A stretch of DNA of 64,000 bases. Origin: Prorocentrum cordatum (taxonomy: Eukaryota > Sar > Dinophyceae > Prorocentrales > Prorocentraceae). Positions 2,181 to 63,980 of this stretch are shown here, one piece after another. Numbering within the stretch: position 1 is the stretch's first letter; each line of letters begins with the position of its first letter. The translations under genes were made by a program, and so were the position numbers. Under the pieces are notes generated by a model that had not been told where the DNA came from, searched no databases, and saw nothing but the letters and a program-made list of their open reading frames with translations. The stretch spans positions 288,501 through 352,500 of the forward strand of contig CAUYUJ010002692.1 in assembly GCA_963575745.1 (NCBI GenBank), written 5' to 3'.

Positions 2181-2528
2181 TTGGAACCTTTTAGGGAGCA
2201 CCCAGGGGGCTCCAGAGGGCCCCAATAGGGCTCCAAGACGCGCCCCAGAGACCACTGAGAGGTCTCATCCGGACGCGCTGTTCGATGACACCTACTAGCG
2301 GTTTCTGAGGCCTCTCTTGGGCCCCCCTTGAGCCCGTCTTGGAGCCCTCTTAGGGCCCTCTGGGAGCCATCTATAGGCCAACAAGGGGCCCAAGAGGGCC
2401 CCAAGAGGGTTCAGGAGTTATGTACCAGCGGCCGCTGGGTTAGTACATAATTCCTGGGGCCATCTTGGAGCCCTCTTGGGGCCCTCTTGGGGCCCTCTTA
2501 GGGCCAACCAGGGGCCCAAGAGGGCTCC
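2181..2528. repeat. 127-bp satellite, segment upstream of the LINE insertion
   Basis: GGGGCCCTCTTGGGGCCCTC words and their complements surround one copy of the NotI-centred palindrome (GCGGCCGC at 2428-2435, outer arms TATGTACC / GGTxxGTACATA). The same unit resumes at 8978, directly after the LINE, so the LINE interrupts a pre-existing array. Confidence 0.85.
2513..2528. repeat. Left target-site duplication of the LINE
   Basis: GGCCCAAGAGGGCTCC lies immediately before the spliced leader and is repeated perfectly at 8978-8993 immediately after the A8 tail. The surrounding satellite contains similar words, so part of the match could be fortuitous, but both copies abut the element ends exactly. 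Confidence 0.75.
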
Positions 2529-2550
2529 TCCGTAGCCATTTTGGCTCAAG
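2529..2550 (+). other. Dinoflagellate spliced-leader sequence (22 nt) at the LINE 5' end
   Basis: All 22 positions fit the known dinoflagellate leader (first base T, then CC, then core GTAGCCATTTTGGCTCAAG). It is followed by GTTTTGAG and a small hairpin (GTTTCCC-T-GGGAAAC, about 2558-2572). It sits at the exact 5' end of a polyadenylated element with flanking duplications, so I read it as a leader added by trans-splicing and then copied back into DNA. An SL RNA gene is less likely because no Sm-site or terminator structure follows. Confidence 0.93.
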
Positions 2551-2678
2551 GTTTTGAGTTTCCCTGGGAAACGAGTGGATACCGCTAGTCCGCGGCTAGT
2601 TCCCAAGGGTTTCAGCGCACCGCTGTGTGAGCCTCCAGGCGACACAGCATCGAGTTTCACGAACACGGACGGTTGTCG

Positions 2679-3846
2679 ATGGCGCCAGATGGCTCTCGGC
2701 GACCGCCATGGAGGCAGCAGCCTGCCTCACGCTACGGAAAATGGTGGAATCCGATCGTCTATCCTCCACTGCCTGGATCTATGCCGCCGCCGCCGTCGTG
2801 GGGAGCGAACACTTGGGGGAAACGCCAGTACCGAGCCCAAGTTGAGTGTTCCTCGTGTGGTCGGTGGCTCTTCCAGGACAGGCTCAAGGCGAAGAACTGG
2901 ACGTGCGAGTGTGGCGCAAAGTTCCAGAAGTCGCGTGGGCCTGGCCATGGCCGTCAGGGGGGTGCTGCTACTGCTGATGGTGACGCTGCGCAGGAACTCT
3001 GTGCCTTGGCGGCCAAACTGGGAGGGGGGGGGGGACACCGAGCGCGCTGTCGACTCCTTGGTAGCCACCCTGCGAGGTCCTCCCCCCGAGACCAAGCCAC
3101 GGCCGCCAGGGCAGGCCCTCCAGATGGCGGCGGCCCGCTTGCAGCGAGGACGCAAGGCCATGGAGGCGGCCAAAGAGCAGTGGAAGAGAGCCAAGCAGGA
3201 GTTGGAGCGGCGCACGGAGAAGCTTCGCGCATGCACGACTGAGGTTATGGAAGCTGAACGTGAAGAGATCGCGAAGGCTAAAGAGTTCTTGCCACCTGAG
3301 GAACTGCCCGTGCCACGGGGTGCTGTCCTGGACATCCAAGAGGTGCTCGACGGCAACCTGGAGCTGGAGATCAGTCTGGGAGTCGACCTGGACGGGTTGG
3401 GCCTCACGCAATCGGACCATGACATCTAGGAGAAGACGAAGGGTGAGCTCCAGGTCTGGTTGTACAAAGCGGTGCAAGACACGTATGGTCAAATCAATGA
3501 GAAGTTGCAGGATCAGAAGGCCAAGGTCTCAGCTGTCCTCGAGAGAGCCCGCAAGAAGAGGAAAGGCAACCTGGGTGAGGCTCAGGTTGGGGCCGAACCA
3601 GCGAGCCAGGGAGCAGCGTCCAGCGCGCCCCGTGGAGGTGCCGACGCAGCCCCTGAGGCGCCTGCGCGAGGAGCGGCGACGGGTGCTGCCCGTGGCTCGG
3701 CAGCAGACCCCGCCCCTCGCGCCGCGCCAGCTCCTGGGGATGAGCATTCGCTCAAGGCCGCGTCTGACCGCTTGCAGGGTGAGGTTGGTGCCCTCGTCCG
3801 CAACCTGAGCGAGCAGAAGACGGAGGGGGAGCCACCGTGCGGGTGA
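2679..3846 (+). pseudogene. LINE ORF1: zinc-ribbon and coiled-coil RNA-binding-type protein (frame-broken)
   Basis: First in-frame ATG at 2679 (MAPDGSRRPPW). A Pro-rich start is followed by a zinc-ribbon-like C-x2-C-G ... W-x-C-x-C-G (VECSSCGRWL ... NWTCECGAKF, about 2845-2930). The frame then moves by one base at the G run 3023-3036 into a long Lys/Glu/Ala helix (MEAAKEQWKRAKQELERRTE, near 3160-3220) typical of a coiled coil. An in-frame TAG at 3427-3429 separates this from a same-frame continuation (YKAVQDTYGQINEKLQDQKA) and an Ala/Pro-rich tail ending at 3846. LINE ORF1 proteins bind element RNA; that role is inferred from position and architecture. The G-run shift could be a consensus error. 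Confidence 0.7.
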
Positions 3847-4870
3847 CGCGCACACTCTGTATGTGAGGAACCTCTCGGGCTGGGGGTATTCGTCCAAATG
3901 CCTTCTTGCTGAGGGCTTGTACGACATAGTCATTCTGCCCGAGTTGCACGTTCTCCCAGATATGTGTACAGAGTTGCTCCATGCTTGGAGCTTTAGAGGA
4001 TACCAACCAGTGGTGGCTCCATCCTACCAGTTGAAGGCGACGGTCAAGGCTGGTGGGATCTCGATGGGAGTCAAGAAGAGATTTCAGTTTCAGAGTTTTC
4101 GCCACCTAGCGACCGACAGACATATGCAGATGGAGCTCCGACAGATCCAGGAGCCAGATACCACCGTGTCGGGGATTGATTTCAGAGACGCTGTAGGATG
4201 TCAGCTCAAGATTGGTGGCCAGTCTATTTCTGTCTTCGGCATCTACTTGACTGCGGATGTGGGCATCACAGGCTTGAACGTGTCAAAGCTGATCCAGTTA
4301 GGTACGCTGTTGCAGTCTATCAAGACGCCTTGGCTGGTCATTGGGGACTTCAACGCGACCCCGATCGAGATGCAGAAGTCAGGATGGCCATCGTTGGTGG
4401 ACGGGTTGATTCGTGTCCCCTCGGGTGCAGAATACACATGCACGGCTGGCCAAAAGAAGATGATTGATTTCGCAGTTCTGTCGCGCTCGATGGTTCGGTT
4501 CGTCTGCTCCATGACGGTGGATGATGAAGCATGCTTTGGGGCAGGTAAGTCGCACTTCGGCATCTTGACGAAGTTGCAGCTGAGGTTAGAGAAGGCTCAG
4601 AGATGGGTACTCAGTATGCCGCAGAGATGTCAGTACCCACCGAGGCCCAAGAAGCAAGCGGATCCGACCAGTAAGAGGTCTCGACAGCGCCTGCTGCGCC
4701 ATCTCAATGAGGCCGCCGCTAAGCCAGAGCCAGAACTACCACGTCCTCCGTTGAGAGCGCGGAGGCAGATCAGGTTCAAGATGCCGCCTCCCTTGCAGTA
4801 CTTGGGGGCGCAGGATTGGGGCCTGGAGCCAGAGGATGACCCGCAGCAGGAGGATGACGGTGAGTCGACT
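3842..4870 (+). pseudogene. LINE AP-endonuclease-like (EEP family) domain
   Basis: An open frame without its own ATG, entered by a one-base shift from ORF1. Hallmarks of the endonuclease/exonuclease/phosphatase fold appear in order: ILPELHV (the metal-binding Glu of the family QE.H motif, near 3935), LVIGDFNATP (GDFN, near 4345), MIDFAVLSRS (D-x-x-L, near 4460) and KSHFGI (the SDH position, near 4545; Ser is present, Asp is not). The enzyme would nick target DNA to prime reverse transcription. A basic linker (SKRSRQRLLRHL) follows. After about 4840 the meaningful frame changes. The His-neighbour substitution and the shifts suggest an inactive copy. Confidence 0.75.
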
Positions 4871-5487
4871 GGCGACGACGACGGCCAGTTCGGCCAGGGT
4901 GGCGCCGAGGGCGCAGGGGGGCGCGGCGATGGGTGCTGGTGGACCAGCAGACCCCGCCCCCCCAGGAGGTGCGGCGACGGGTGCAGGAGGCCCTCCAGAC
5001 CCCGCCCCTCCAGCAGCGCAGGGAGAGAGCGTCTCGCAGCTGCTCCTCGAGACGGCGCCAGAAGCCCAAGACAGGCTCTGGCACGCTCTGTCGGCCAGTC
5101 GGCCACAGGGCACGCCGCCGAAGTACATAGTGGATTCGAACGCGTTTCGGTTGGATCCCGAGGCGTCGCTTTCTGGTGGCAGGTCCTTCGCGGACTGGAC
5201 TGATAAGTTTGAGTTTTTTTTTGCGCGATGTTGGAGATACATCCGAGTGATCAAAATAAGTACCGAGGTAGAGGTTCCCTTGGAGGGCTCACTAGGAGAC
5301 CCGAGGCCCAAGGAGCCCACTTTGTCTCGTCTAGGGACCCTGTGGCGCACTGGTGGGCCACGGTGGATTTCCTGTTGAAGGACCTTGTGGGCCTCCTGGA
5401 CCAGAGGGGCTCTAGTAAGGCCAGTAGGTTAGGCGAGCGCTTGAGGGACTTGTCGGTCTCTGTTCCTGTCTCTGTCTCCCTCCTCCT
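4836..5487 (+). pseudogene. LINE inter-domain linker between endonuclease and RT
   Basis: Two frames share this stretch. One is Ala/Gly/Pro-rich (GGPADPAPPGG repeated twice). Around 5020-5210 another carries a plausible globular segment (LLLETAPEAQDRLWHAL, then KYIVDSNAFRLDPEASL). No motif is recognised. It belongs to the polyprotein by position only. Confidence 0.4.
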
Positions 5488-6870
5488 GTGCGCACCAGGT
5501 GGTGCCGAAGTCTCAGGGTGATTTGGGAGCTCAGTGATGACTCCATCAAGGACCTCAGTAGGCAGGCCTACTCCAATTCTGTCAGAGCCCAGAGGTCTGT
5601 CCTCCATGCCAGTCTCGGCAAGTTCCACCAGTGGGTCCTGCAGCAAGACCAGCTAGGTGGACGGGGGCTGTACAACAGGCTCAAAGACAAAGCTGTTTTT
5701 GCTTGCGAAATGAGGGCTTGGGGTGACCCAGTTCTAGATTCTTGTGCACGCATGGAGGCCAGGGCCAGAGTGTGGAGCCTAAAGTGGAAGGGGGATCCCT
5801 CCACTTTCAAGCGTGTTTTCGAACTTTGGAGGAAAGCCCAGTCGAAGGCTAAGGCACTCGAGCCCAGGCCGATCACTGAGGAGCAGATTTCCAGGCTCAC
5901 CTCAGCCCTGCCAGACCGCGCGCCGGGGGTAGACCAGATGACGAAGAAGGACTTCCTCTGGTTGCCTAGGGCGGGCCTGCAGTATCTGGCAGGGCTTTCT
6001 CCCAGGTGGACAGAGAGTGCTGTTGGCCATGGCAAGTCCTGGTCATTCTTGTCACCCTCCAGGTCAAGGACTTGGAAGCGGATCGTGCGATTGGCCTGCT
6101 TGCCTGGCTGGTGAGATTCTGGGGCAGGCTGAGAAACGATGACAGAGCTGCCTGGACGAGGGACACTGCTGGCACGTGGGACACGGCGCTGGCGGGCTCC
6201 TCGGCCCTGCAAGCTGCGTTGCTGCGCCTGTTTCGGGATGAGGAGGCAGCCAATTCAAGATTCAAGCTTCCCCGACCTTCACAGTGGTAGTTTGCTCTGG
6301 GATGTGAAAGGGTTCTATGATAGCCTCCGATGGGACCTCATCTTGGAGAAGGCACTGGATCTAGATTTCCCGCCTTGCTATCTTGCTCTAGAGTTGCAGA
6401 TACACATGGCGGTCAGGTTTCTTCGAGATGGGGGGGGCTACTCGCCCCCTGTAGACCCAGAGCTGTCACTCATTCCAGGTAGCAGTGGCGCAGTCGACTT
6501 AGGAAGAGCTGCCCTGCACCATGTTTGCGCGCAACTTGTCACTGGGGCTCCTGTGGAGCCGAGCCTGCACACTTGGGTGGATGGCATTGTGCAATGCATG
6601 CACGGCACAAGTGAGTTAGTTTTCAGACAGCTCCCAAGTGCGGGGCTGAAGCTGGTCCGTTGTCTCGAGCAGGCTCACCTTTCCATGGCCAGTTAGTCGT
6701 GCATCATCTGCTCGAGTACCAGTGTAGCCAAGCAGCTGCAGCAGTTTTTAAAGGGACACCAGATCGACATCCAGGTCAAATTAGTCAGTGCTGACCTAGG
6801 CATAGACCGAGGTAGAGTCGGGGCGTCTAGGCCGAAGCAGGCAGCACGTAGACACGCCACGGTTAAGCGT
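5488..6870 (+). pseudogene. LINE reverse transcriptase domain (frame-broken; catalytic Y/W-x-D-D is WVDG)
   Basis: The RT entry motif TEEQISRLTSALPDRAPGVD (near 5877-5935) matches the K..aGPDg region. The frame then shifts to ILVTLQVKDLEADRAIGLL (6030-6100) and again, near 6290, to the palm: LLWDVKGFYDSLRWDL (motif A, Asp present, near 6296), SSGAVDLGRAALHH (motif B region, near 6483) and HTWVDGIVQCMHG (motif C, near 6568). Motif C has one Asp where RTs need two, so this copy should be catalytically dead unless that is a base-call error. A TAG at 6694-6696 is followed in the same frame by VSADLGIDRGR and a basic thumb region running into the next ORF. Confidence 0.78.
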
Positions 6871-8943
6871 TTGGGTAAGCTTCAGAAGCTTGCTGCAGGC
6901 AACATGTTATGCAAGAGATGGGCGAAGAAGATGGCCCTCACGGCTGCCTTCGCCAAGTCACGTTATTCTGACAAGGTGCACGACACTGCCCCCCATGTCG
7001 TTTTGAGATGGCGTCGGTCGTTGGGTCGGTTGACGGGGGGAGTCGCTACGGGGGGTAGGTGCCTCACCACGCTGTTAGCGCTTGAGTATGGGAGGAAGGA
7101 TCCTGCTTTCCTCGCTCTCTTCGACACGATCGAGGCATGGTTCCTCATTTTAACGGATCGCAATTTCCATGCTGAGAGGATCCGCAGAGTCTGGAGAAAG
7201 GTTCTCGCGCGTCTGCGGGACAGGCCCGCCAGGCACAGGTGGAGAGGTGTCGCCACCCCTGCTGCGGCGACTATTGCCACTCTGCTTGATCTTGGTTGGG
7301 AGCCTTGGGGTCCGTGGGCTTGGGAGTGCGATCTTGGTGTTAGGTATGCTATTGACGAGTCCCTGCTTGGGCGGGGTAAGGTTGATCTTGCTGTCATCAA
7401 GGAGGCTCTGGCAGCTAGCATGGAACGCAAGTTGTGGTCTGCTGCCGCTCAAAATTCGTGGAATGGCCAGGGCCTTGAGTTGGTCCCAGATCTGTGTGAT
7501 TTCAGAAGGGACCTCAGGAGGCTCAAGAAGAAAGGCAAACATGAGTGGGCTGGCATCCTGCGTGCGGTCGCCACGGGCAACAGTTGGACCCGCTGCCGCA
7601 TGCAGGAGTGTAACCTTTCGCAGGACAGCCGCTGTCGCAGATGCCAGCAGGTGCTCGAGTCAGACCTTCACAGAGCTTGGGAGTGCCCCAAGAATGCAGA
7701 TTTTTGCAAGGTCTCAGATTTCGTCGTTCGCAGAGCCAGAGCAGATGCAGATCACAATCCTAGTTTTTGGATCAGAGGGCTGACGCCCAGTTCTTGGACA
7801 GCCGTCCCCCCGCCACCCGAAGTTGCTGATTTCCGTAGGTTGGGTGATGACTTGGGTGAGGCCGTTGTGAACGGTTTTGCTTTCGGTGGTGGGGACGCGA
7901 GCGGCGGCCAGGATACTCAAGATCCTATGCTTCGTAGAGTTGCCTGGTCTTGGGTGGTGCTGAGAGGGCTCGACGAGGACGGACAGTACTTGATCGAGAG
8001 CCTTCGCACGCACGCCGCTGGATTTGGCAACATCCCAGGGTCGAGGCAGTCGGTCAACCGAGGCGAGGTTATGTGCTTGGTTGAGTTCGTGCGTGCGGTG
8101 TTTCCGACTGCCTCGGCCTATTTTGTCACTGACTCTTCGTATGTTGTTAATAACCTTGCCAAGTTAAGGGCAGGGATCAATCCACAGTCTCACCTCGACG
8201 TGTGGCACCAGCTCAGAGCTCTCATTCAGACGCACCCCGAACGGGGATTGGTCGTAGTCAAGGTCGAGAGTCACAGGAGTGCCGAGCACGTCTCTGCCGC
8301 AGGTGCGGATCAGCTGCACTACCTTGTCAACGAAGTTGCAGACCGTATCGCCAGCTCGTGGGCAGATAATTTGCGTGTGCCAGAGAAGGACCGAGACAGC
8401 AGGTCCTTCGCCCAGGGGATTGCTTTCCAGGTTCGGGACCACCTCGGGCACACTCTATTGTCGGCGATTGAGGCGGACGGGGACAGGGCCCCTCGAGAAA
8501 AGGTTGTGCAGCGTCATTTCAAGGAGTATAAGATCCAGTTGGATCTAACCGCTCACACGCCAGCGGAGGGTAGGAGGCACCGCATCCAATGTAAAATTTG
8601 TGGAGGCTCGGCCCCCCGCTCCCTGGCTCGGCAGTTCCTGACCACTCCTTGCCACGCAGGTTTGTTCAATGGAGTGGTTATGATACCACAAGGCGCTGTG
8701 GTAAATGGTCAAAGGTTGCATCCGTCCCACATGTTAGGTTACAGCAAAGCATGGGGCACCACAGTTTGTTTCACGTGTGATTTCATTGCGGCCATGGCGG
8801 TTCGCAATTTGAAGCATCAATGTGCTGGTCACCTTAGTCACTATGGTGCCAGGATGCTGAAGAAGGTGGCCAAGGGCCAACCTCCTGGCAGAAGCCAGTG
8901 GGCCCGCCAGAATCAGGTCGTCAAGACCCGCAGGCGGAAGTGA
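6871..8943 (+). CDS. LINE C-terminal polyprotein: CCHC-like cluster, RNase H, C-terminal Cys/His region
   Basis: A 690-residue open frame without an ATG start. It is the uninterrupted 3' end of the pol reading frame. Near 7590-7700 a cluster CRMQECNLS...CRRCQQV...HRAWEC resembles the zinc knuckle after LINE RTs. The RNase H fold follows with all four acidic positions: GGDASGGQD (first Asp, near 7890), NRGEVMCLVEF (Glu, near 8060), FVTDSSYVVNN (Asp, near 8125) and NEVADRIASSW (last Asp, near 8330). RNase H would remove element RNA from the cDNA hybrid. A last Cys/His region (CKICGG ... CFTCDFIAA ... HQCAGH, 8590-8830) and a basic tail precede the TGA at 8941-8943. Confidence 0.85.
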   Translation: MGKLQKLAAGNMLCKRWAKKMALTAAFAKSRYSDKVHDTAPHVVLRWRRSLGRLTGGVATGGRCLTTLLALEYGRKDPAFLALFDTIEAWFLILTDRNFHAERIRRVWRKVLARLRDRPARHRWRGVATPAAATIATLLDLGWEPWGPWAWECDLGVRYAIDESLLGRGKVDLAVIKEALAASMERKLWSAAAQNSWNGQGLELVPDLCDFRRDLRRLKKKGKHEWAGILRAVATGNSWTRCRMQECNLSQDSRCRRCQQVLESDLHRAWECPKNADFCKVSDFVVRRARADADHNPSFWIRGLTPSSWTAVPPPPEVADFRRLGDDLGEAVVNGFAFGGGDASGGQDTQDPMLRRVAWSWVVLRGLDEDGQYLIESLRTHAAGFGNIPGSRQSVNRGEVMCLVEFVRAVFPTASAYFVTDSSYVVNNLAKLRAGINPQSHLDVWHQLRALIQTHPERGLVVVKVESHRSAEHVSAAGADQLHYLVNEVADRIASSWADNLRVPEKDRDSRSFAQGIAFQVRDHLGHTLLSAIEADGDRAPREKVVQRHFKEYKIQLDLTAHTPAEGRRHRIQCKICGGSAPRSLARQFLTTPCHAGLFNGVVMIPQGAVVNGQRLHPSHMLGYSKAWGTTVCFTCDFIAAMAVRNLKHQCAGHLSHYGARMLKKVAKGQPPGRSQWARQNQVVKTRRRK

Positions 8944-8969
8944 GTGTACAGTTTGGCATTGCCAGGATC

Positions 8970-8977
8970 AAAAAAAA
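8970..8977 (+). other. A8 tail at the LINE 3' end
   Basis: Eight A residues lie 26 bases after the stop codon and directly before the right duplication, as expected for a reverse-transcribed polyadenylated RNA. Confidence 0.8.
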
Positions 8978-8993
8978 GGCCCAAGAGGGCTCC
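8978..8993. repeat. Right target-site duplication of the LINE
   Basis: GGCCCAAGAGGGCTCC, identical to 2513-2528, directly after the A tail. Confidence 0.75.
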
Positions 8994-9470
8994 AAGAGGG
9001 CCCTCAAAGGGCCCCAAGAGGGCCCCAGGAGTTCTGTACCAGCGGCCGCTGGGTTGGTACATAATTCCCGGGGCCTTCTTGGGGCACTCTTAGGGCCAAC
9101 CAAGGGCCCAAGAGGGCTCCAAGAGGGCCCTCAGAGGGCCCCAAGAGGGTCCCAGGAGTTGTGTACCAGCGGCCGCTGGTTTGGTACACAATTCCTGGGG
9201 CCTTCTTGGGGCACTCTTAGGGCCAACCAGGGGCCCAAGAGGGCTCCAAGAGGGCCCTCAGAGGGCCCCAAGAGGGCCACAGGAGTTATGTACCAGCGGC
9301 CGCTGGTTTGGTACATAATTCCTGGGGCCATCTTGGGGCCCTCTTGGAGCCCTCTTAGGGCCCTCTTGGGCTCTTGGGGCCCTCTTCGGGCCCTCTTGGA
9401 GCCATCTTTTGGGCCAACCAAGGTTCCAAGAGGGCCCTAAGAGGGCCCCAGGAGGGGCCAGGCCGGGGCC
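8978..9470. repeat. 127-bp satellite with NotI-centred palindrome
   Basis: GCGGCCGC cores at 9042-9049, 9169-9176 and 9296-9303 give an exact 127-bp period. Each core lies in CCAGCGGCCGCTGG with outer arms TATGTACC / GGTACATA, so each unit can form a hairpin of about 33 bases with a 3-base asymmetry (GTT). Between cores lie mirrored runs of GGGGCCCTCTTGG and CCAAGAGGGCCCC, which could pair over the whole unit. The ORFs here are periodic artefacts. Confidence 0.9.
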
Positions 9471-22230: not shown

Positions 22231-24168
22231 CTGGGCAGGGAGGCGGAAGCGAAAAACAGAATCACACCAGCCCTCTGGGCTTAAGAGAGGGGCTTGCCCC
22301 TCCCCTTTGCCCCCTCTCTATCTAAGGCCTGGACTGGAGGAGACGGCTCAATGATGGCTTCCAACGTGCTACGATAAGCTCCAAGACAGCTCCAAGTTCC
22401 AAAGGGCCACGGGACTCTTCGACGATTTACCAACCAGTACGCCAAACCAATCCACCACCGTGCCTGCGGCACGTTGAGGCGTGGAAGAATGCCAGCGGTT
22501 TCCTGGCAGGGTTCCTGTAGTCTTCTGAAGGGCCGCCCACTCGGCGTCCGGCGAGATGAGACTGCACCGCCCCGTACTCCCGGGGGGCACCTGGGCGGCC
22601 TCCCCGGGACTCCCCCAGTCTTCCACGACGGCTCAGGAAGCCCACCCAGGCCAACAAGATAGCCCAAGATGCATCCAAGACGGCCCAAGATGGCCTCCAG
22701 ACGGCCCAAGAGGCCTCCAAGACGCCCCGAGAAGCCCCCAAGAGCGCCTAAGATCCCCAAGATGCGCAAATCAGTGATGTCCCTGAGGCTTGTTTGCGAG
22801 ATTTCTGCATTCTCGACGTTTCGGCTTCCCGACGCTCCACGACGGCCCAAGAGGCCCCCAAGATCGCACCAAGACTCAGCCCAAGAGGCCCCTAAGAGGG
22901 CCCCAGGACGGCCTAAGAGCGCCCCAAGAGGCCCCCGAAGAGGGCTCCAACGCGGCCCAAGAGGCGCCCAGGACGGCTCCACGAGGGGGCCCGGACGAGG
23001 GGCCCGAACGGACATCTCGAGCCTTCGGCCGCAAGGGGTTCCCAGGAAACCCCAAGAGGCCCCCGAGAGAAGCAAGAGGCCCCCAAGAGGCCCCTGAGAA
23101 GCCTCAAGAGATCACCCAAGAGGCCGACAAGGGCGCCAGAGACGCTTACCACAGAGAACACCAGAGACGGTTGACACAGGAAGCGCCACGGCGCATAGTG
23201 CACTGATTTTCTATATTTATTTCAACGCGGGAAGGCGCGCCCCCTCCCCGCATTGAAAGTAACAATGCTTGTGCGGCATACCCCCAAGAGGCTCTCGAAA
23301 GACCTCGAGATTGTCTCCAACATGCCCCCGAGAGGCCGCCCACGATATCCCGGCGATCATTCGAGAGGCATATAGCTCACAACCCAGGCGCGGTGGCGGG
23401 ACTCGCCGCTGGCAGCTGGATCTCTATTTTCTTGCACCGTCTCGCATGTCCGCCTCCGATGGTATTCCAGGGGTCCAAGATGGCTCCGAGATGGCTCCAA
23501 GATGGCCCGGAAATCCCAAGGTCCAGGAGTCCAGGAGGGCCCCAAGAGCGCGGGCTGGCGGGGATCCGCGAAGCGTCTAGAATCAGACGAGTGGCACACT
23601 TTGTCGAAGCTTAGCGGACAAAAAAAAGCCACTCACGTTTCTGCCAGAAACGTGAGTGGCCTTTTTTGTCCGCAGCGCGTCTGGACCTTCAGACCGCGAC
23701 ACGCCTAGAAAGAAAATCCTCGTCCTGATCCTTATCCTCGCCCTCCCCGTCCTCGTACTCATCCTCGTCATTTTCCGTCTCGTCCACCTCTTGCTCGTCT
23801 TAGCCCCCCCGTCGTCTTGCTCGATCCTCATCCCCCTGCTCATCCCCATTCTCCTCGCCCCGTCATGAGGCGCCGGATGCCCCCGTTTGCAAGGGCAGGG
23901 GTGCCAGCGAAACCACCCCCCAAAGATTGCGGCCAGGGCGGTCGGGCATAGAAGGGCAACAACACAGGGGGAGGGATGGGGGGGGGGGGGAGAAGGAGGA
24001 GGAGACAGAAGAGGAGGTGGAGATGGAGGGAAAGCAGGAGGAAAAGGATGAGGATGAGGAGGGGGGGGGAAGAGAAAAAGGAGGCAAAGGAGGAGGGGGG
24101 GGGGAAGAGGAGGAGGAGGAGGAGGGGGGGGAGGAGGAGAACGACGACGATTGTTGCGCAGCCAGCGC
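22231..24168 (-). other. Methyltransferase intron 2 (GC-AG), repeat-filled
   Basis: The 5' boundary that keeps frame is GG|GCGCTG (GC donor) at 24168, and the 3' end is GCCCAG at 22231. GC donors are known in dinoflagellates. The intron holds CCAAGA-type repeats (22660-23110), a near-perfect hairpin (23614-23673), a TCC/CTCATCC tract (23710-23870) and GGA/G runs (23975-24140). The last is the polypurine complement of a pyrimidine tract as read in the gene. No other gene is seen inside. Confidence 0.65.
23614..23673. other. Near-perfect 60-base hairpin inside the methyltransferase intron
   Basis: Left arm GCGGACA7-8GCCACTCACGTTTCTG (23614-23643), right arm its complement (23645-23673), with a one-base loop. 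The only differences are in the A/T run (8 A against 6 T) and a G. On both strands the stem carries a T run, so it could act as a bidirectional terminator, a small-RNA precursor or a MITE relic. Confidence 0.85.
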
Positions 24169-24923
24169 CCGAAAAGCCAGAAGCCGCTGCCGCCGGCGCG
24201 GTGCCTCGTCAGGCAGGGCGCGTAGTCCTTGGTGATCTGGGCACCGTGGGACTTGCTGGAAGCCAAATCGGCGACCCACTGCTCGGTCTTCAAGCCAATC
24301 TTGCCGCCGTTATCCTTGATCGTTTCCAGGGCCCCCAGGTAGTTCCGCAGCTCAGTCATAGAAGTGGGCAAGGTCGGTCCCTTCGCCAACTTCTTGTCGT
24401 ACGGGAGAAGCAAGGACTCCAGGGGGGCAGGCTGCACTGGCTGAGGCCACGTGAACTCGGCGAGCTTGATATCGTTGCGAAGGCCAACTATCAACACCCG
24501 CTTGCGGCTTTGAGGAAGCCCACCAATCTCCCTCGTATTAACAATGCGCCACTTCACGTCATACAGCTGCTTATTTGATGAGCCTGGCATCTTGATCTCG
24601 CTGAGGTCCTTCAGGCTTTTGTCGGAATACTTGCGATGATTGTGCACCAGCCCAGATACGTTCTCTAGGACGAACCCCAGAAGATGCTTCTCCTTGATGT
24701 AACCTGTCACTTGATCAACAACTTGCTTCCCTCGACTGTCTCGCTGCCCTCCGTTCGACCCCATGTTGCTGTAGGGCTGGCATGGAAAGCCGGCTGTGTA
24801 TATCGTCACCGACGGGGCCGCTGAATTGTCACGATCACAGATGTCTTTGTGCAGCATGCCAATGTCGGCGTTGTGCGCACCAATGTCAGCTTCCATCTTG
24901 AGCTTGAAATTTGCCAGGAGGAC
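24169..24923 (-). CDS. C5-cytosine DNA methyltransferase, exon 2 (motifs II-VIII)
   Basis: This is the catalytic exon, 755 bases, open throughout. It starts after the acceptor TGTGCGCAG with VLLANFKLKMEADIG. Family motifs follow in order: TIYTAGFPCQPYSNMG (motif IV, catalytic Cys of PCQ, near 24790), GFVLENVSGLVHNH (motif VI, ENV, near 24660), IGGLPQSRKRVLIVGL (motif VIII, Q-x-R-x-R, near 24500) and YAPCLTRHRAGG (start of motif IX, near 24195). The enzyme methylates C5 of cytosine in DNA with SAM; target specificity cannot be read from this. All key residues are present. DNMT genes are known both in dinoflagellate hosts and as cargo of retrotransposons; the introns argue against a fresh retrocopy. 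Confidence 0.92.
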
Positions 24924-25911
24924 CTGCGCACAGAAAACATCACGCAGGTATCTCACAACAAATTACCCCAGTGCGACCCTACCTAGAAGTTGGAGCCCCT
25001 AGGAAAGCAGCAATAGTTGCTATGCTATGCCATGTTATGCTGCGCTGTGCTATTCTATGCTATGCTGCGCTGTGCTATGCTAAGCTATGCTATGCTATGC
25101 TATGTCAGCATGCGCTGTGTTATGCTAAGCTATGTTACGCCGTGCTATGCTAAGCTGCGCTATGCTGTGCTATGATATGCTATGCTATGATATGGTATGG
25201 CATACTATGCTATGACATGATATGATGCGCTATGCTCTGCTAGGCTATGATATGATATGCTGTGCTGTGCTATGATGTGCTGTGCTGCGCTATGCTATGC
25301 TATGCTATGCTATGCTATGCTCTGCTGCGCTATGCTATGCTATGCTATGCTGGGCTATGTTATGAGATGCTGCGATGCGATATGCTATGCTACGCTATGA
25401 TATGCTGTGCTCTGCTATGCTAAAGCTCAGCTCATATACTATGCAAGTAAGCTAAGCTAAGATAAACCTGAGCTAAGATTAAGCTAAGCTAAGCTAAGAT
25501 GAACTAGCCTAGCTAAGATGAGATAAGCAACGCTAAGCGAAGGGGGCGTAACTGGGGGAACCGCGGGGCGGATGCCTGGGGAACCGCCCGGGGCGTTATC
25601 CACTGGCCGGCCCTTTAGGCACAGAGGGCAAGAATCCTTCTAGCCAGAGCCTAGGCAGGGAAAAAACGAAACGGAATGCGAAGGGGCCGAGGAGAGCAGA
25701 GGAGGGCATTACCGGAGGGCGGGAAGGGGAACGACGGGGAGGAGGAAGAAGGGTGGCAGAAGCAGGCGAAGCCCTCGTTGCATGCCCTGTCAATGTGTTT
25801 CTCATCACGGGCCCCCATCTGTCTCCTTCCTCCGTCGTCGCTATGTATTCTCCTCTCCTACTCTCGATCCATCCCTGGTTGACCCCGAGGGCCCATTGTC
25901 CCGAGTCTCAC
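24924..25911 (-). other. Methyltransferase intron 1 (GT-AG), with a pentanucleotide array
   Basis: Donor AAG|GTGAGACT at 25911 and acceptor at 24924. Both flanking exons are in phase 0. Over half of the 988 bases is the TATGC array described separately. Confidence 0.75.
25014..25545. repeat. (TATGC)n pentanucleotide array grading into (TAAGC)n
   Basis: TATGC units with TGTGC, TGCGC and TATGA variants to about 25430, then TAAGC/TAAGA units. It lies inside methyltransferase intron 1. Confidence 0.92.
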
Positions 25912-38215: not shown

Positions 38216-38514
38216 CATTTATCTCCAGCTGCACGGGGAACCACCTGAGCCAGGAGCTTTGGGGGGTCCGACGGACAGGCGGGAGCCTACAGGAAAACAA
38301 GAGACACCGACGAACACAATCGAGGTAAGGATGCACAAAAGACCAATCTGTTCCAGCAGAGCGGCAGTGTGGGTCGTCAGACCCCAAAGTACTTCAGAAG
38401 CAACAGTGAGGGCATCTCTGATGCCCCAGTGCCGAGAGCCCTCGGTGCATAACCTGCAGGGCCCCTCGCACGAGGGGCGAACATCAAAAACCACAAACAC
38501 TGAGGCTTATCCCC
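38216..38514 (-). repeat. YR element repeat B2 (3' terminus)
   Basis: Plus strand begins CATTTATCTCCAGCTGCACG and ends CTTATCCCC. It includes the perfect hairpin GCCCCTCG-CA-CGAGGGGC at 38461-38478. About 96% identical to 38636-38934. Confidence 0.9.
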
Positions 38515-38535
38515 CCGCCAGGGGGGGCGGGCGGG

Positions 38536-38635
38536 GCCGAAACTTGAGCGCGCGCGAGAGAGAGAGAGAGGGAGCAGAGGGGGCGGCCCAGGTAGGGGGG
38601 CACAAGCTAGATAAAAGTGCGTTTAGGAAAACATG
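38536..38635 (-). repeat. YR element repeat A2
   Basis: Plus strand from GCCGAAACTTGAGCGCG through a GA run to AGTGCGTTTAGGAAAACATG; the counterpart of A1 at 45704-45798. It abuts B1 without any spacer. Confidence 0.9.
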
Positions 38636-38934
38636 CATTTATCTCCAGCTGCACGGGGAACCACCTGAGCCAGGAGCTTGGGGGGGTCCGACGGACAGGC
38701 GGGAGCCCACAGGAAAACAAAAGACACCGACGAACACAATCGAGGTAAGGATGAACAGAAGACCTATCTGTTCCAGCAGAGCGGCAGTGTGGGTCGTCAG
38801 ACCCCAAAGTACTTCAAAAGCAACAGTGAGGGCATCTCTGATGCCCCAGTGCCGACGGCCCTCGGTGCATGACCTGCAGGGCCCCTCGCACGAGGGGCGA
38901 AAATCAAAAAACACAAACACTGAGGCTTATCCCC
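38636..38934 (-). repeat. YR element repeat B1
   Basis: Same 299-base unit as B2, hairpin at 38881-38898. It lies between the internal region and A2, as the split-repeat model predicts. Confidence 0.9.
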
Positions 38935-40250: not shown

Positions 40251-43200
40251 CCCAGGCGAGTGCCCCCTTCTTGGCGAGAGGGGGGGGGGGGGGCTGGACG
40301 TTTGGCGAGCCCCCTCCACGAGGCGAGCACAAAGGAACCAAATCAACATCCACCTCGAAGATAACGTGGCCCGCGAAGAACTGCTGCTCGTGTCTGTGGA
40401 CCAAACAAACGATGCCTCGTCCAGCAAAACTGGCTCGCCGCCACCACCACTCGCTGTTGCCTGCGCGGGAGCAAGTCCACCGTGCAGGTGCCCAGGGCGA
40501 CGGTCGAAGGCCATGGCGACACGAACCAGGCCGCCCAAGGCAGACCTGGATTTTCCTCGATCATCAGGCAGAACTGCGAGCACACAAGCGTCACGTGCCC
40601 CGTCGGTCAGGTCGGGACCTCCAACGTCCTCTCCATAACATGGATGGACCTCGCTTGACCAGCTCCCGTGAAGAAAGCGCGTACCCTCTCCGGTGTGTAC
40701 CTCCACTTGTGCTCCTCCTTGGTCGCCCCTGCTGCCCCCATCGGTAGCCCACGACTCGGGCCATCGGCTATGTTGTCCTCCGAGGCCACCCACCGCAGGA
40801 CCAGCTTGATGCCACAAACGAGCGACACCGCGGCTGCCTGTCTCGCGAGATGTAGTAACCCTGCTGCCGACGACCTCCCCTTTCACATGACCCCCATGGA
40901 GACCAGAGGGTCGCTGAAAACCAAGATTCGTTTTCGCCGCATCTTCGTCGATCGTGAAGCGTGTCGGAGTAGCCCCACGATGGTGCGCAGCTCTAGGATG
41001 TTGTTGTGCTCCTCCCTGTCCCACTTCCCAGAGTATAGGACAAACCATCTCGCCTCGTCGGTCCATGGCCGACCAGCGGCCAGTGCCTGCCCCCGAGCCT
41101 TCACCACGTGTAACTTCCCGTTCGCTCTCCTCGCCTCCGCACCTGCCATCGCGAGCCCCCAGTCTGGCTCGATCCTCCGACAAGCCCGCCCATATTCGAT
41201 CAGAAACTGCGGGTCGTAGTCGAAAAACGTCCACTCGGCCTCGGGCAGACCCTTCAGCTCGTCCACGTCGCTGGCCAGTCTGTAGAACACCTCCTCGTTG
41301 GTAATGATGCGGATCTTCACGTCCCCCATCTTCACCTCGAAGCTGGAAATCCCTGGCGTGTCCACCAGCTCGCCCCAAGAGTCCTCGTCGAAAAACTCCA
41401 GCAGGACCACCATGAAAGACAGCCCCAGAGACCCACACAGCTTCGCCACCTCCCGACACAGAGACCGCGTGAGCTCCGACCTCGACGGCGTCAGATGAAC
41501 AAACCACCACCATCTTCGCCTCAATCTGGAAAACAGCCCCCCGAGATCCCTGATGTCGTAGATATCGTGCTCGGCCCCCTTCGCGAAGTTGCTGGACACA
41601 CACCGGGAGGATGTCATAGCTCGGATGGTGGGCGTGACAAGTGCAACTCCAGCCGCCAGTTCGAGCACTCCAGGGCGCCCGAGATCGGGAGCTATCTGCT
41701 CGTCGTCCTCCTCCCCTTCGTGCTCGACCTCCTCCTTGATGTCCTGGTACGTCTCGTCGACGCGCACCCTCCACGTCTGGGGCACTCCCTTGGCGGCCTC
41801 GTCCCTGCACTCCTCGCTCGTGGTGAGGGTCTGCGCCGCCCCATAGCCGAACTCCGAGGCGTCCGTCATGTAGGCCCTCCCGAACCACCCCGTTTCCAGG
41901 TCCGACTCGAAGTGCGCCGAGAGCGAGCCCAGGCACATGAGCTCCGCCAGGACCCCCTTTGGAATGTCGCGCACCTCGTCCCCCAGGTCGCTCGACTCGT
42001 TCAACCACCTGTAGACCCTGTCCAGCATCGCAAACCCAGGGCGTGCAACCATCAGGACCCACGCCCAGAGCCCGAGCAAGGATGCCACCGTCGATGGTCG
42101 CGAGGCTCCAGCACACACCAGGGCCTCGGTGGCCAGGACGATCTCCTTCATCCTGTCCTCGTGCACGACCACCCGACACGGCCTTCCCACAATGGAAAGA
42201 CCCAGCCCCTTCTCCAGCCCAGGCCCCCACGTCTCCTTGTGCACCTCCAGCCCTTTCTCCGTCAAGACCGTCTTCACCACCTCCTTGTCGATCTCCACCT
42301 GCTCCTCCCCGCCCTCGTAGAGCCTGAGGCCAATGTAGTCGTCGATGTACAAGAGTAGCAGCAGGTCGTAGTTCACAAACGATGGCACTTGCATCCCGTA
42401 GGCCAGCTGAGCCGACTTGAAAGGGCTGATGCCTTGGAGCGAATCGGTCAGACACGAGTGCGCCAAGAATATGGCCCACGAATGCCCCATCACGGGCGCG
42501 ATGGCCCCAATCCCCACGTCGTCGCCGTCGGGTTTCGGGGCGCTCACGCCTTCCCGTTGTGCATAGTCCCAGAGCTCCCGTGGTGTCAGCAAGTCCAGCA
42601 CGCAGTACTCCGCCAGTGCCTTGGGCCACCTCAGGCGGTAGAACCAGTCTGGGATGCCCCCTGAGAAGCTCAGCAGCTGCTGGCCCTGAAGCACTTCTCC
42701 CGACAGGTCCACCGCCGCCAGCGCACTCGGAGACCCCAACCCCGTCCAGGGGGGCCTCCTGAAGCGCAAGTTGAGACGTCTGCAGTCCCACACCAGCCTC
42801 GACCTCGCCACCTCGGTAGATGAAGCCTCCACCATTGACTTGACCACCGTGAAGATGCCTACCTTCTCCTTCACCTCTTTGGCCAAAAAAAAATCCCCGA
42901 CTGCCACATCTTCAGCCCCAGCTTCAGCCTGTTCGACTCCCGCTTCCAACCGGCGTCGGTGAAGCTCGATGTGGACTCGTGCTTGACCCAATCGACCTCG
43001 TCGGCCGTCCTCAGCATCAGCCCCTCCACGTCCAGCAGGTAAGGGAGGGCCGTAGGCGACAGGTCTGTCACCTTGAGCCCCCTCGCCCCTGCGGCTGGGA
43101 CCCACACCGCGTCCGCCACCATGTCGCAGAGGCCCCCCTTCTTGAGCGCCACCTTGGGTCGCTCCTTCACCACCGACCTCTCGTAGCCGCTCAGCCCACC

Positions 43201-44647
43201 ACCCAGACGGCTGAGAACCGCCCTGCCATCGGCGATGCTCCCCCAGCTCGCCCTCAGAGCGAGCCTCCGCCACAGCTCTTTCACAATCGAGATCTGGATC
43301 GACGTCGCCTTCCTCCAATCGACGAAGTCGGGCTTCAGGCTCAGCTCGTCGAAGACCTTCACGTGCCCCTTCGCCAAGCATCTGATGCTCGCAATGGCGC
43401 GCTCCAGCCTCCGCCACGTCACCCTCAGCTCCTTCACCTCCGCCTCCTGGAACGGCACCTCCCAGCAGAAACCGTTGCGAGCGTCGCACACGGCCCCGTT
43501 GGCCGGGCGCGGCAGGCATCGAAGAGGATCCCGCTCCCTCTCGTCTAACCTGAACTGTGGACCCGAAGAACACCTCGACATCGTCCCGATGATCAAAACC
43601 ACTCTGCCAGAACCGATCGGACCTGATATACACAGCACAGGGCCAACCGATCATAATGAGCACCACGCACAAGTAGATGGCGAGCACACTCCACCCCTTC
43701 GTTGCCAACCTGCACCTCCGAAACCCCAAGAATGCAAAGCTACACGGACTGGCGCCTATCGCGCTGGCGTGGCTAAGGGCGGCCGTGACCGATTCGTCCG
43801 TGTGGCCCTTGTCGCCGACAGCATTCTGGTGCTTGGCGATCGTGGCCCTCTTCCTCAAACGTTCGGCAACTTCGTCATCTGCAGCTTCAACGGTGGCGTG
43901 TGCACCATCACTGATCTTCAAGATCTCCTCACCGTAACTCCAGTTGACTTCACTCTTCCACTTGCTCCCGTTCGAGTTCTTCGGCCTCTTCCAGTCGCTC
44001 TCCGTCTCCACGTCCTGGTACGCCTTGAAAATCGAGTACAGCCTCAAGCACGTCAGCTCCGACGCCTGGGAGTTGATCAGCGCGTCGTACTCCCCGCTCG
44101 TCATCATCTTGTCCAGCACGGCCGCGAGCATGGTGACCTCGCTCGCGATCGAGCACTTGGTCAGCTCCTTCTCCTTCAGCCACCGTGCAATCTCCGTCTG
44201 AGCTGAGCGACCGTGCATGTCGAGTCCCGCCAGTATGCTAGGCGCGACCCTGGCCTTCACGCCCCCGATCCTTGCGCCGCCGGCGTCCTTGTAACTCTTG
44301 AGCGTCGCCAAGAGGGCCTCCTTGGGGTTCTTCGCTTCCTCGATGAGCTGGTGGAGCGTCTCTTTGACTGAGGAGTCGCTAGGGCTCGACACCCTCTCCC
44401 AGGAGGGCTGGGACGACGGCGTAGTCGAACCCCTTTTTGTCGCCTTCGCCGAGTCAGCCTGCACCACCTCCTCATGCTCAGCGAACTTCGCCAAGAACTG
44501 ATCCACCTCCGAAGCCGAAGTTGCCACAACTCCCGATGGCTCGGGCTCCGTCCCTGCGAAAGCGAGCTTCTTCCTCGGCGTGCTGGGCCGGTCGTCCTTC
44601 TTCGTGCTGGAGAGGACGTCCGCCAACGTGGCGATGCTATGCTGCAA
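40251..44647 (-). pseudogene. YR element polyprotein: gag-like region, reverse transcriptase, RNase H (frame-broken)
   Basis: From 44647: a gag-like helical region (SIATLADVLSSTKKDDRPST ... QASELTCLRLYSIFKAYQDV). The frame moves near 43590 into CDARNGFCWEVPFQ and returns at the A9 run 42885-42893 to the RT: SRLVWDCRRLNLRFRRPPWT, GISPFKSAQLAYGMQVPSF and the catalytic LLLLYIDDYIGL (YIDD at 42338-42349). RNase H follows with YMTDASEFGYGAA, NNILELRTIVGLL, LVFSDPLVS and RWVASEDNIADGPSRG (all four acidic residues). TGA codons at 40883 and 40607 fall in frame. No ATG start is seen; the region is continuous with the upstream ORF across a TAG at 44669. Confidence 0.85.
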
Positions 44648-44668
44648 ATGCTGCTGGCCTCGTGAAAG

Positions 44669-60868: not shown

Positions 60869-61566
60869 AAACGTTGAACCCTGACGGCCACGGTGTAACG
60901 GGACCCGCGCGGGACACATGATAAGCAAGCATGTCGCAAGATTCTCCGACAGAAGGGGGAGCGCAGTGCCCACATGTGCCGTCGAAGCCACTTATGCACC
61001 CACACTGCTCGCAACTCAGGCAATGTCCAGAGGCGGAGCAAAACGCACCTGTTTCACACTGGCTGTGGCCCGCGAGCTTATGGCAGGACATCTTGATGTA
61101 AAGATCCAGATTGTAGTAATCAGCAGGGCAGCCAGTGTGATTGGACGTCGCCATTAGTTGACAATCACCTATCGACGTGGTCCACGGGTCTACGAGTCCA
61201 TGGTCGACACCATAATTGAAGGCCACACAAGATTGAAACTCGTCGCACAATGCTGAGCAATCAGCAACCGACAACCCTTTGATGATGTTCATAACCCCCG
61301 CCCCGGCCTCCAGCGGCGTACCCTCCGAAGACGCACAGTTCCGCGCATGGTGCACGTATGTCTCTGGTGGCGCGGCACACTTGACAGCTCTCCAAATGTC
61401 CAGACCTCCATAGCAGTTGTTCTGCTCAAAACTCCTGGGGTCCCCATTCGGAAGGTCAGCGTCAGCCTCACACATCTGTCCGACTTCCATGGTCATGACG
61501 CACTCTGGCATATCGCACCCAGTATGGTCTCCATCTGTGCAAGGACAGTCGTTCAGCGACACGGCT
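60869..61566 (-). CDS. Cys-rich secreted-type protein exon with PAN/apple-like segment
   Basis: One open exon of about 230 residues with about 30 Cys. From 61566: VSLNDCPCTDGDHTGCDMPE, QNNCYGGLDIWRAVKC, then a PAN/apple-like spacing (ARNCASSEG ... SVADCSALCDEFQSCVAFNY ... GDCQLMATSNHTGC), then a CxxCxC module (CSASGHCLSCEQCGCISGFD). PAN domains bind protein or carbohydrate outside the cell; the match rests on Cys spacing and the L-C-x(5)-C-x-x-F pattern. Likely acceptor TTTCGAAG (61567-61574) and donor AAC|GTTTATGG (60868). Signal peptide and other exons are not visible. Open throughout, unlike most neighbours. Confidence 0.65.
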
Positions 61567-61899
61567 TCGAAACAAATAATCGCGGAATCCTCAGGGAAAG
61601 GAAGGAGGAGGAAGGGCAGGGGAAGGTGGCGGAGAAGGAGGAGAGGGTAGAGGGAAGATCAGGAAGGAGGAATGAGACAGATGAGGAGGAGCATGTATCC
61701 GCCAGTCCCCCTCACGGGGCCACCAGGCTCAGAGGGTTAAGCTTGTTGCTCCCTGCGCCAATTCCAGCATCCAGTTTCCAATGTGATGGGTCTGCTTCTG
61801 CTTCCCACTGTCAAATGTTGAAAACCGCGCAAAACGGCCCGAACCACCCTACACCACGCCCTCCGGGTGGTCTCAGAAATTCTGGAAGGGTCGTGGGGA
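61567..61899. other. No gene; GGA tract
   Basis: Purine-rich 61590-61690, then unique-looking sequence with no exon. Confidence 0.55.
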
Positions 61900-62660
61900 A
61901 CGTTTTTAAAAAAACGCTACAGTCGCACCCCCAAGGCAGAAAACCTTTACAAATTACACCGTACTCGCGTGCCCGAGGCCATGAGCCCCTGTATAAATTA
62001 TACTATATTCGCGTACCCGAAACCATAATCCCAAGTAAACTGAACTGTATGTGGGCCCCCGGGGCCACAAACATTCGCAAATTATGCCCTACTTGCGTCC
62101 CCGAAGCCAAAGCCCCGCATACATTACAGAATGTACGCGCCCCCGACGCCACGATCCATCGTAAATCACGCCGTATCTGCATCCTCCACCTCGTAATTCC
62201 CCGATAAACTTTACTAGACCCGCGCCGGCGTAAATGATTCAATGTCTGCGTCCGGATCCCTTGTAAATTATACCGAGGCCACGATCCCTCGCAAACGCAA
62301 AATACTCGCGTCCTCGAAGCCACGTTCACCCATTAATTATACATGAGTCGCGTCCCCGAGGCCACGGTCCCTCGGAAACTATAAAATAGTCGCCCCCCCG
62401 AAACCACGATCCCTAGTAATTTATACAGTATGCAAGCCCCCGAGGCCACGACCCCCGCAAGTGATGCCATAGTTGCACCTTCGTCCTCGAGGCCATAAAC
62501 CTCCGTAGGTTGTGCAATATTCGCACCCTCGAGGCCACGATCCCTCGCAAAGTATACAATAATTGCGTCACAGACGCCACAGTTCCCACCGTACATCACG
62601 CACAACATTCGCGTCCCCGCAAACCACGCCCCCGCAAGCCGCGCGCGCACGCGGGCGGGC
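61900..62660. repeat. Minisatellite, about 45-bp unit (CCCGAGGCCACGA / AAATTATAC)
   Basis: About 15 units, each with a CGCGTCCCCGAGGCCACGAT-like head and an AT-rich tail (AAATTATACTATATTCGC). Copies drift in length from 40 to 50 bases. Confidence 0.88.
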
Positions 62661-62689
62661 GGGCGGGCGGCCTCAAGAATGCGCCGTTG

Positions 62690-62995
62690 GAAAGCGCCTC
62701 CTAAAAACCAGCCGAAAACCTTTCTCCGGAAGGCTTTTGAAAGAACCCTCTTAAAATACCGGCCAAAAAATATTCCTCCGGAGTGTTGTTTGGAAGACCC
62801 CCGAAAAACCGTCCTAAAACCTTCCTCGGTAAGTGCTTGTTGGAACAACCTTCCCAGAAACTCTCTAAAGCCTTCCGCGGGACAGCTGCTCGGAAGAACC
62901 CAAAAAAAACTGTCCTAGAACCGTATTCAGGAAGGCTTTTTGGAAGAACCCCCCTTCGACGACCCCCTGAAACCTTCGTCGGGAAGGTCCCAGGA
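62690..62995. repeat. Minisatellite, about 60-bp unit (CCTTCCTCGG ... TTGGAAGAACC)
   Basis: About five units of AAAACCTTTCTCCGGAAGGC / TTTTGGAAGAACCC, ending where the LINE endonuclease fragment begins. Confidence 0.85.
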
Positions 62996-63980
62996 GGGGT
63001 TGGTCGAACTGCCGCACCCAACCAGCCTGAGCGGAGCCTCGGCGCGCCTGGCCACGGTGACGGCGACGGGTCGGTGAAGCCAGGTGATCGCCTCGACGCT
63101 AGCCTCGACCGCGTACTTGACTCCATTGAGCATCGGCTAGTGGATGAGAAAGTAGTCCAGCGTGGTGGCAGGCACCGCCTGGACACAGGCGGGCCCCTGC
63201 GGTGCAACGCATACAGCGTCTGCAAAGTGTAACCAGTCGTGCTGCAGCAGCTCCTGTGGCGGCATGTCGAAGTCTCCCCCGACGACCCACGTCAGTCCTG
63301 AGCCCTCCGCCACCTGCTTCAAGTACTTCATCACCTGCCACGCGATCGCCAGGTTGCGAGGTGAACGGCCCTCGCCCGCGCGCAGGTAGAGCGCCACCGC
63401 CACAGAACCGCCAGGGCGCGCTGCATGCACGTGCGCCGCCACTGCCCGGCCAGGTACGACGACCCCGCCGTCGAGCATCGGCGCCTCGGCGACGGCAGTG
63501 TCCGACTTCGCCAGCACGGCGACGCCGCCCTCGGCGCCGCCGGCAGCCGTGCCCACGGCGGAACACCACGCCCCACGCCAGCCAGCGTCCTGGGCCTCAC
63601 CCTGCACCTCTGGGAGCTTCTCCAGCCCTGCGCAGTGCTCCTGCGCCGGCACCGCGTCGCCGGGGCAGTCGACTAGGCACTTGGTCAAGATCCCGAAGGA
63701 ATGCGCGCTCACTGCGGTAATATGCAGGCTGCTTCTCGCCATGACATGCGACGCAGACTCCCCGCCGCGCGCGTGGCCTCTCGACCACGCACCACTCGGG
63801 CTCGGCTGGGCGGATGCGCTCGACGGCCGCGCGAAGTTCTTCCTCAGTGGCATCGCCAGATTTAGGTATGTCAGCACCAGACTCGCGCGGGAAGTCCCGA
63901 AGCTCCTCGGCCGCGGCTCGGTCGACGGACCCCCCCCTGGACTTCGCCGTCGCCCTCCTCCATGGCAGCAGTCTGCGCAA
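62996..63980 (-). pseudogene. LINE endonuclease-domain fragment (second LINE family)
   Basis: On the minus strand: an upstream block in another frame (ATEEELRAAVERIRPAEPEW, near 63850), then SSLHITAVSAHSFGILTKCL, VPAQEHCAGLEK (metal-binding Glu), GGVAVLAKSDTAV, LTWVVGGDFDMPPQELL (GDFN position, Asn to Asp) and TTLDYFLIH. These are the EEP motifs in order. A TAG at 63137-63139 is followed in the same frame by NGVKYAVEASVEAITWLHRP (the HRPV strand). It stops at the 60-bp minisatellite near 62996, so RT and RNase H are missing. The sequence differs clearly from the LINE at 2529. It probably continues upstream past the window end. Confidence 0.7.

Follow-up and report, generated by a model that had tools for sequence, protein, structure and literature searches.

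The 64-kb stretch of Prorocentrum cordatum DNA analysed here (the window; contig CAUYUJ010002692.1, positions 288,501 to 352,500) contains a long interspersed nuclear element (LINE) with two open reading frames (ORFs), which begins with the 22-nt dinoflagellate spliced leader (SL) TCCGTAGCCATTTTGGCTCAAG. The leader, at 2529–2550, agrees in all 22 positions and abuts the left target-site duplication (TSD) on one side and the body of the LINE on the other, with no spacer bases. The TSD GGCCCAAGAGGGCTCC is an identical 16-mer at 2513–2528 and 8978–8993, and it encloses the leader, the two-ORF LINE and a tail of eight adenines (A8, 8970–8977). This uninterrupted order of parts, already described in a sequence-only reading of the window, was confirmed. 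Within the window the 21-nt leader core (2530–2550) has this single match at up to three mismatches, and it was found in none of 100 shuffles. The features of the element are listed below.

2513–2528, plus strand: left TSD, inside a satellite unit; identical to 8978–8993, the joined flanks forming an intact unit
2529–2550, plus strand: spliced leader of 22 nt, the 5′ end of the element; 22/22, sole match in the window at ≤3 mismatches
2551–2678, plus strand: 5′ untranslated region (5′UTR) of ~128 nt, common to other LINE copies of the genome
2679–3846, plus strand: ORF1, with zinc-ribbon-like CxxC motifs seen by eye, one frameshift and one stop; from the alignment with the relative P0004, 191/338 aligned codons identical
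3857–8943, plus strand: ORF2, encoding endonuclease, reverse transcriptase (RT) and RNase H; broken, with WVDG as motif C; from the alignment with the relative P0006, 601/1608 codons identical
8944–8969, plus strand: 3′UTR of 26 nt, read from the sequence, the 3′ ends being compared among copies
8970–8977, plus strand: A8 tail, read from the sequence
8978–8993, plus strand: right TSD, identical to 2513–2528, the joined flanks forming an intact unit

When the two flanks were joined by script, an unbroken satellite unit resulted, and its alignment to adjacent units runs through the joint. Downstream of the element the 16-mer GGCCCAAGAGGGCTCC recurs in each 127-bp unit of the satellite, at 9105 and 9232, and for this reason the TSD of the window alone is weaker evidence than its length of 16 bp suggests. 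The sequence-only reading had named such recurrence as a result that would refute it. The recurrence does weaken the TSD of the window, but the conclusion stands, since TSDs adjoin the leader in 13 further copies of the element.

Coding capacity of the window copy

The coding part of the window copy is of full length. Its ORF1 spans residues 38–394 of the 400-amino-acid P0004 and its ORF2 residues 1–1679 of the 1682-amino-acid P0006; the protein relatives used here are labelled Prorocentrum cordatum or are encoded on ENA contigs of 1.6–10.9 kb. Apart from the frameshift and the stop in ORF1, the alignment program places three frameshifts in ORF2, together with one mis-framed stretch whose stops were bridged and one further stop, and five frame changes are seen in ORF2 by eye. 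The RT motif C reads WVDG in the window copy as opposed to WVDD in the relatives. With its frameshifts, stops and WVDG motif the copy is dead and no longer the autonomous element for which it was first taken, although it is still of the LINE kind despite the lost autonomy.

In the window copy Pfam matches an endonuclease (PF03372, E 5e-4) and an RNase H (PF00075), both below the cut-off, and no Pfam RT is matched in the copy itself. The RT is recognized through the alignment with the relative P0014, in which RVT_1 at 746–958 (E 6e-12) overlaps the region aligned to the window copy. PF03372 scores above the cut-off in the relatives P0008 and P0014, with the endonuclease upstream of the RT as in a LINE, and RNase H and endonuclease are above the cut-off in some relatives. 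TSDs of variable length (11–17 bp) and the short A-rich tails of most copies are likewise those of a LINE. Searches for further relatives in viral contigs (queries A1, P0004 and A3) and in genome contigs (query A3) gave nothing useful, nor did P0001 and the endonuclease ORF when compared with PDB sequences. Rfam returned only sub-gathering matches over the element, nearly all of them microRNA-like and in the satellite, and none at gathering scores over the whole window.

The leader in other copies and across the genome

The assembly (4.13 Gb, 21,875 contigs) was searched with the 5′-terminal 572 bases of the element as query. This gave 834 candidates, of which 40 were scored, and all 40 matched. 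Thirty-nine of the matches were read (C2522 was left out): the window copy, 20 long copies and 18 whose match is confined to the initial 130 bases. Two long copies, L014 and L021, have the same flanks as L013 and L020 and were dropped. With the window copy counted, 19 distinct long-copy loci remain.

The leader is the start of the element in 17 of these 19 loci, with differing upstream flanks, and the prediction, set beforehand, that other copies would share the leader junction thus holds. It carries one mismatch in L020, L022 and L024 and three extra bases in L030. In copy after copy, an identical exon end meets an identical base of the UTR. A TSD of 11–17 bp, its left copy ending at the first base of the leader, is present in 14 of the 17 copies with both ends (11 exact, three with one mismatch), compared to 8/272 in a control of mismatched pairs (Fisher p 8e-16); L015, which contains a run of N, and L018 lack a 3′ end and were left out of this test.

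The 3′ ends are short, being GGATCAAATCAAAAA in most copies, with extra A or TA repeats in some, and not a long A tail; the window copy has A8, while AAATCAAAAA is the end of most copies. The transcript behind the element had been proposed to be both trans-spliced and polyadenylated. The leader at the 5′ ends of the copies supports trans-splicing; the short GGATCAAATCAAAAA at the 3′ ends of most of them does not establish polyadenylation.

Among the short-match copies, a recognizable leader with 0–2 changes is found in 17 of 18, and L046 retains just the last eight leader bases. After the leader these copies share the 5′UTR and then continue, by eye, into other ORF1 starts, so that in L032–L049 the leader and the head of the 5′UTR (~129 nt) precede LINEs of different ORF1 starts. 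The non-coding head appears to be better preserved there than the coding part behind it. In L030 and L031 the leader stands on an unmatched 5′UTR.

Three pairs of copies, L013/L014, L020/L021 and L034/L036, have the same upstream flank on different contigs. They are segmental duplicates or uncollapsed haplotypes.

The assembly contains 14,218 exact copies of the 21-nt leader core and none of the reversed pattern, ~0.002 copies of the core being expected by chance. Every fifth of the first 100 listed places was taken as a sample of 20 loci (L050–L069), which were read downstream to 6 kb (twelve loci) or to 1.8–2.5 kb (eight loci). The core is directly preceded by T in 19 of the 20. Hidden Markov models (HMMs) of the endonuclease or RT of this LINE group matched downstream in 9/20 on the strand of the leader and in 0/20 on the other strand; as controls, segments of the window gave 0/9 matches at 5.85 kb and 1/23 at 2.35 kb. 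The Pfam endonuclease and RVT_1 were found on the leader's strand in two more loci, L052 and L059, in which the leader fronts LINEs with other RT types. Thus the leader heads a LINE in at least 11 of the 20 sampled places (95% interval 32–77%), the other nine being unclassified.

About half of the 20 sampled insertions lie, by eye, within microsatellites, for example TCC/GGA or CA repeats. This suggests either that such targets are preferred or that they are safe sites.

Origin of the leader and alternative explanations

The heads of 27 copies were aligned; L014, L018, L021, L023, L029, L030, L031, L033, L036, L039, L040 and L046 were left out as duplicate, leaderless, tandem or truncated or as having another UTR. 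Non-majority states make up 14/567 in the leader versus 244/2889 in the 5′UTR, and variants common to two or more copies are 4 of the 14 in the leader versus 206 of the 244 in the 5′UTR. The remaining 10 leader variants are private. If the leader is added afresh in each cycle, private, later mutations are expected, and the pattern seen nearly fits. Most likely, as these variants and the stacked leaders described below suggest, the leader was re-added by trans-splicing and not inherited.

A 33-nt pattern of the 5′UTR start (≤2 mismatches) has 20 places in the assembly, with none for the reversed control. CTCAAG stands in front of it in 19, and in the twentieth, L017, the last G of the leader is shared with the UTR. 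Nineteen of the 20 places were read (C15733 was left out), and the leader is present at all 19. The longer master copies with extra 5′ sequence that the sequence-only reading had envisaged did not appear: as far as this assembly and this pattern can show, none of these 19 has an outron or other sequence replacing the leader before a complete 5′UTR start.

Tandem leaders, also envisaged, do exist. L023 has two leaders, the outer one with one change, and L039 and L040 also have two, the second being shortened to CCATTTTGGCTCAAG (L039 shows two changes in it), at the point where splicing at the internal TAG of the leader would cut. Among the sampled places, L067 has three leaders and L053 and L058 have two each, so that stacking is seen in 3/39 copies read and in 3/20 sampled places. 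The 5′UTR of the window copy itself gave no match to a relict leader above shuffles. The TAG-cut stacked leaders indicate that leader-headed copies were themselves transcribed from further upstream, re-spliced and re-inserted.

The window element is interpreted as a full-length retrocopy of a leader-spliced LINE RNA, addition of the leader being a regular step of the cycle here and in other LINEs of the genome, with a probability of about 0.87. LINE RNA would receive the 22-nt leader of the host and then be reverse transcribed into a nicked target, with synthesis proceeding to the leader's capped end, so that the 5′ end of the element would be set by the host leader. A leader-headed copy would in turn be transcribed from outside the element, with its leader providing the splice acceptor. 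This would usually be the terminal AG of the leader, resulting in a clean replacement, and sometimes the internal TAG, which would leave a relict leader behind. Use of the terminal AG would account for one clean leader in copies that differ by up to ~15%. The odds are about even that the genomic leader acts, through its AG, as the trans-splice acceptor of the element in several LINE types genome-wide, giving a fresh capped 5′ end in each cycle with no need for a promoter-defined one.

The main rival for the terminal-AG step is a leaderless master locus, that is, a single source or a small number of them, unassembled or diverged, with an outron and a normal acceptor, the leader-headed copies being dead on arrival. 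Such a source is possibly missing from the assembly, of whose 834 candidates 40 were scored, and the predominance of single leaders agrees with it. However, stacked leaders require leader-headed templates and no leaderless head was met at the pattern places read, which makes a master locus rather unlikely. A single capture of the leader in an ancestor, after which it became an inherited, conserved part of the 5′UTR, perhaps a promoter, with transcripts starting at its first base and no new splicing, is improbable. The presence of the leader in most copies with little variation would be in line with this, purifying selection would likewise keep the leader clean and imitate the pattern of private variants, and the review PMC6050394, in the passage concerned, puts forward TTT(G) of the leader as a promoter. 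Inheritance nevertheless leaves the TAG-cut stacked leaders unexplained, and it does not agree with the 10/14 private leader variants, with the different 5′UTR behind the leader in L030 and L031, or with leaders in front of LINEs of other RT types (L052, L059).

LINE enzymes are able to join other RNAs, and the reverse transcriptase might have switched from LINE RNA to free SL RNA during insertion. Such template jumps would scatter and would often bring in intron sequence of the SL RNA, whereas the joint seen is fixed, and this explanation is very doubtful. Almost no weight can be given to site-specific insertion beside genomic leaders or SL RNA genes, in the manner of SLACS/CZAR. The leader does adjoin the element, but it lies inside the TSDs, the upstream flanks differ, and 0/20 of the sampled leaders are followed by GT, with which the donor of an SL RNA gene would be expected to begin. 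An artefact of assembly or of contamination with complementary DNA (cDNA) could be imagined in a repetitive genome in which some other copies lie on duplicate contigs. It is scarcely credible given that the satellite continues in phase on both sides of the window element and that the same architecture with TSDs is found at other sites.

Several points weigh against the interpretation of the element as a retrocopy of trans-spliced RNA. Its support comes from genomic sequence, and scoring covered only 40 of the 834 candidates. The leader is missing in two of the 19 long-copy loci: the first element base present is 36 in L018 and about 115 in L029, and L029 has a 12-bp repeat further upstream. 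No TSD was found in L019, L029 and L030 among the 17 two-ended copies. The contrast between leader and UTR is weaker inside each of two subgroups (p 0.03 and 0.07), the pooled test counting related copies as independent. The first base of the leader is T in 14/14 heads of the family, but in 13 non-family heads it is T in five, G in three, C in three and A in two, so the full 22-nt leader may not be general. Finally, the predominance of single leaders is compatible with terminal-AG splicing and with a leaderless master alike.

Other observations and known systems

Elsewhere in the window, a second retrocopy considered at 38492–38934 was rejected, as a longer direct repeat is common to both of its flanks. 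The minus strand carries a second LINE endonuclease fragment at 61100–63450 (HMM E 6e-13), a C-5 cytosine DNA methylase ORF at 23583–24959 (PF00145, E 2e-25) and, at 40883–44668, long ORFs, perhaps another retroelement, in which a YIDD motif is seen by eye and which have no Pfam match.

Exact leader cores were also seen on three other contigs. L001, an AT-rich, giant-virus-like IMG/VR contig, contains at ~1780–2766 on the minus strand an insert of 44–50% GC headed by the exact core; it encodes a 254-amino-acid ORF, ends A-rich and has a second exact core 147 bp upstream. This insert looks like a trans-spliced host cDNA in a viral genome. In L003 the exact core (4334–4354, minus strand) is followed by GTAC and lies downstream of an apparent 28S rRNA; it is probably an SL RNA gene linked to ribosomal DNA, on a contaminant contig in a metagenome-assembled genome (MAG) of Dehalococcoidia. 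L002, from another Dehalococcoidia MAG, has the exact core at 32–52 on the plus strand, at the contig start after a TCA repeat.

From one copy to the next, a LINE has to transmit a promoter together with a complete 5′ end, and here host splicing appears to supply the 5′ end. The leader-headed insertions with TSDs point to LINE machinery as the enzyme that recycles messenger RNA (mRNA) in dinoflagellates. Because many genomic leaders in this genome head LINEs, counts of genomic leaders used for finding retrogenes may need correction.

SLACS and CZAR are retroelements that insert into SL RNA genes, and like the present LINEs they are linked to leader sequence. Here, as opposed to insertion into the SL gene, the element carries the leader inside its TSDs and the flanks differ.

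Leader-tagged retrogenes are treated in passages of PMC6050394, PMC12014239, PMC3229502 and PMC3942190. As mRNA-recycling enzyme source, the review PMC6050394 favours long terminal repeat (LTR) elements in the part concerned, and passages of PMC10235124 argue for LINE-mediated retroposition from proximity, near leader-tagged viral remnants. Old LINEs and leader counts in Symbiodiniaceae are covered in part of PMC8045281, and leaders in P. cordatum transcripts in part of PMC10666404. Among the matches listed, drawn from a collection with few subscription papers and preprints, none described dinoflagellate LINEs that begin with the leader.

A close likeness is that to the DinoSL-tagged retrogenes (Slamovits and Keeling 2008; passages of PMC3229502, PMC6050394 and PMC12014239), which have the same leader, with inner relicts cut near the internal TAG, as a mark of retroposition. 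As in these retrocopies, the leader of the P. cordatum element is at the exact 5′ end and joined to the transcript body. The tagged retrogenes described in those passages carry host genes and the enzyme involved is uncertain, whereas in P. cordatum the cargo is the LINE itself, with TSDs.

In flatworms, a genomic leader is likewise joined to retrotransposons, for which an origin from trans-spliced transcripts has been suggested: passages of PMC5832876 describe six such elements, and those of PMC12582326 tie 597 discarded loci to mobile elements. The flatworm case is raised there as a possibility, PMC5832876 also allowing for assembly chimeras, and the passages contain no target-site or private-versus-shared test. 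In Hydra, ~30% of Iso-Seq reads of transposable elements carry a leader (PMC12220107), indicating that such RNAs can be trans-spliced, as is proposed here. The Hydra evidence is from RNA, the passage concerned being silent on insertion, while the evidence for P. cordatum is from genomic insertions.

The trypanosomatid L1Tc/ingi elements with Pr77 (PMC4748587) are also LINEs whose host practises trans-splicing, and a common 5′ head precedes different elements, as in P. cordatum. According to the passage concerned, however, Pr77 is an internal promoter that gives unspliced, leaderless transcripts, which is the opposite solution to that of the leader-headed LINEs.

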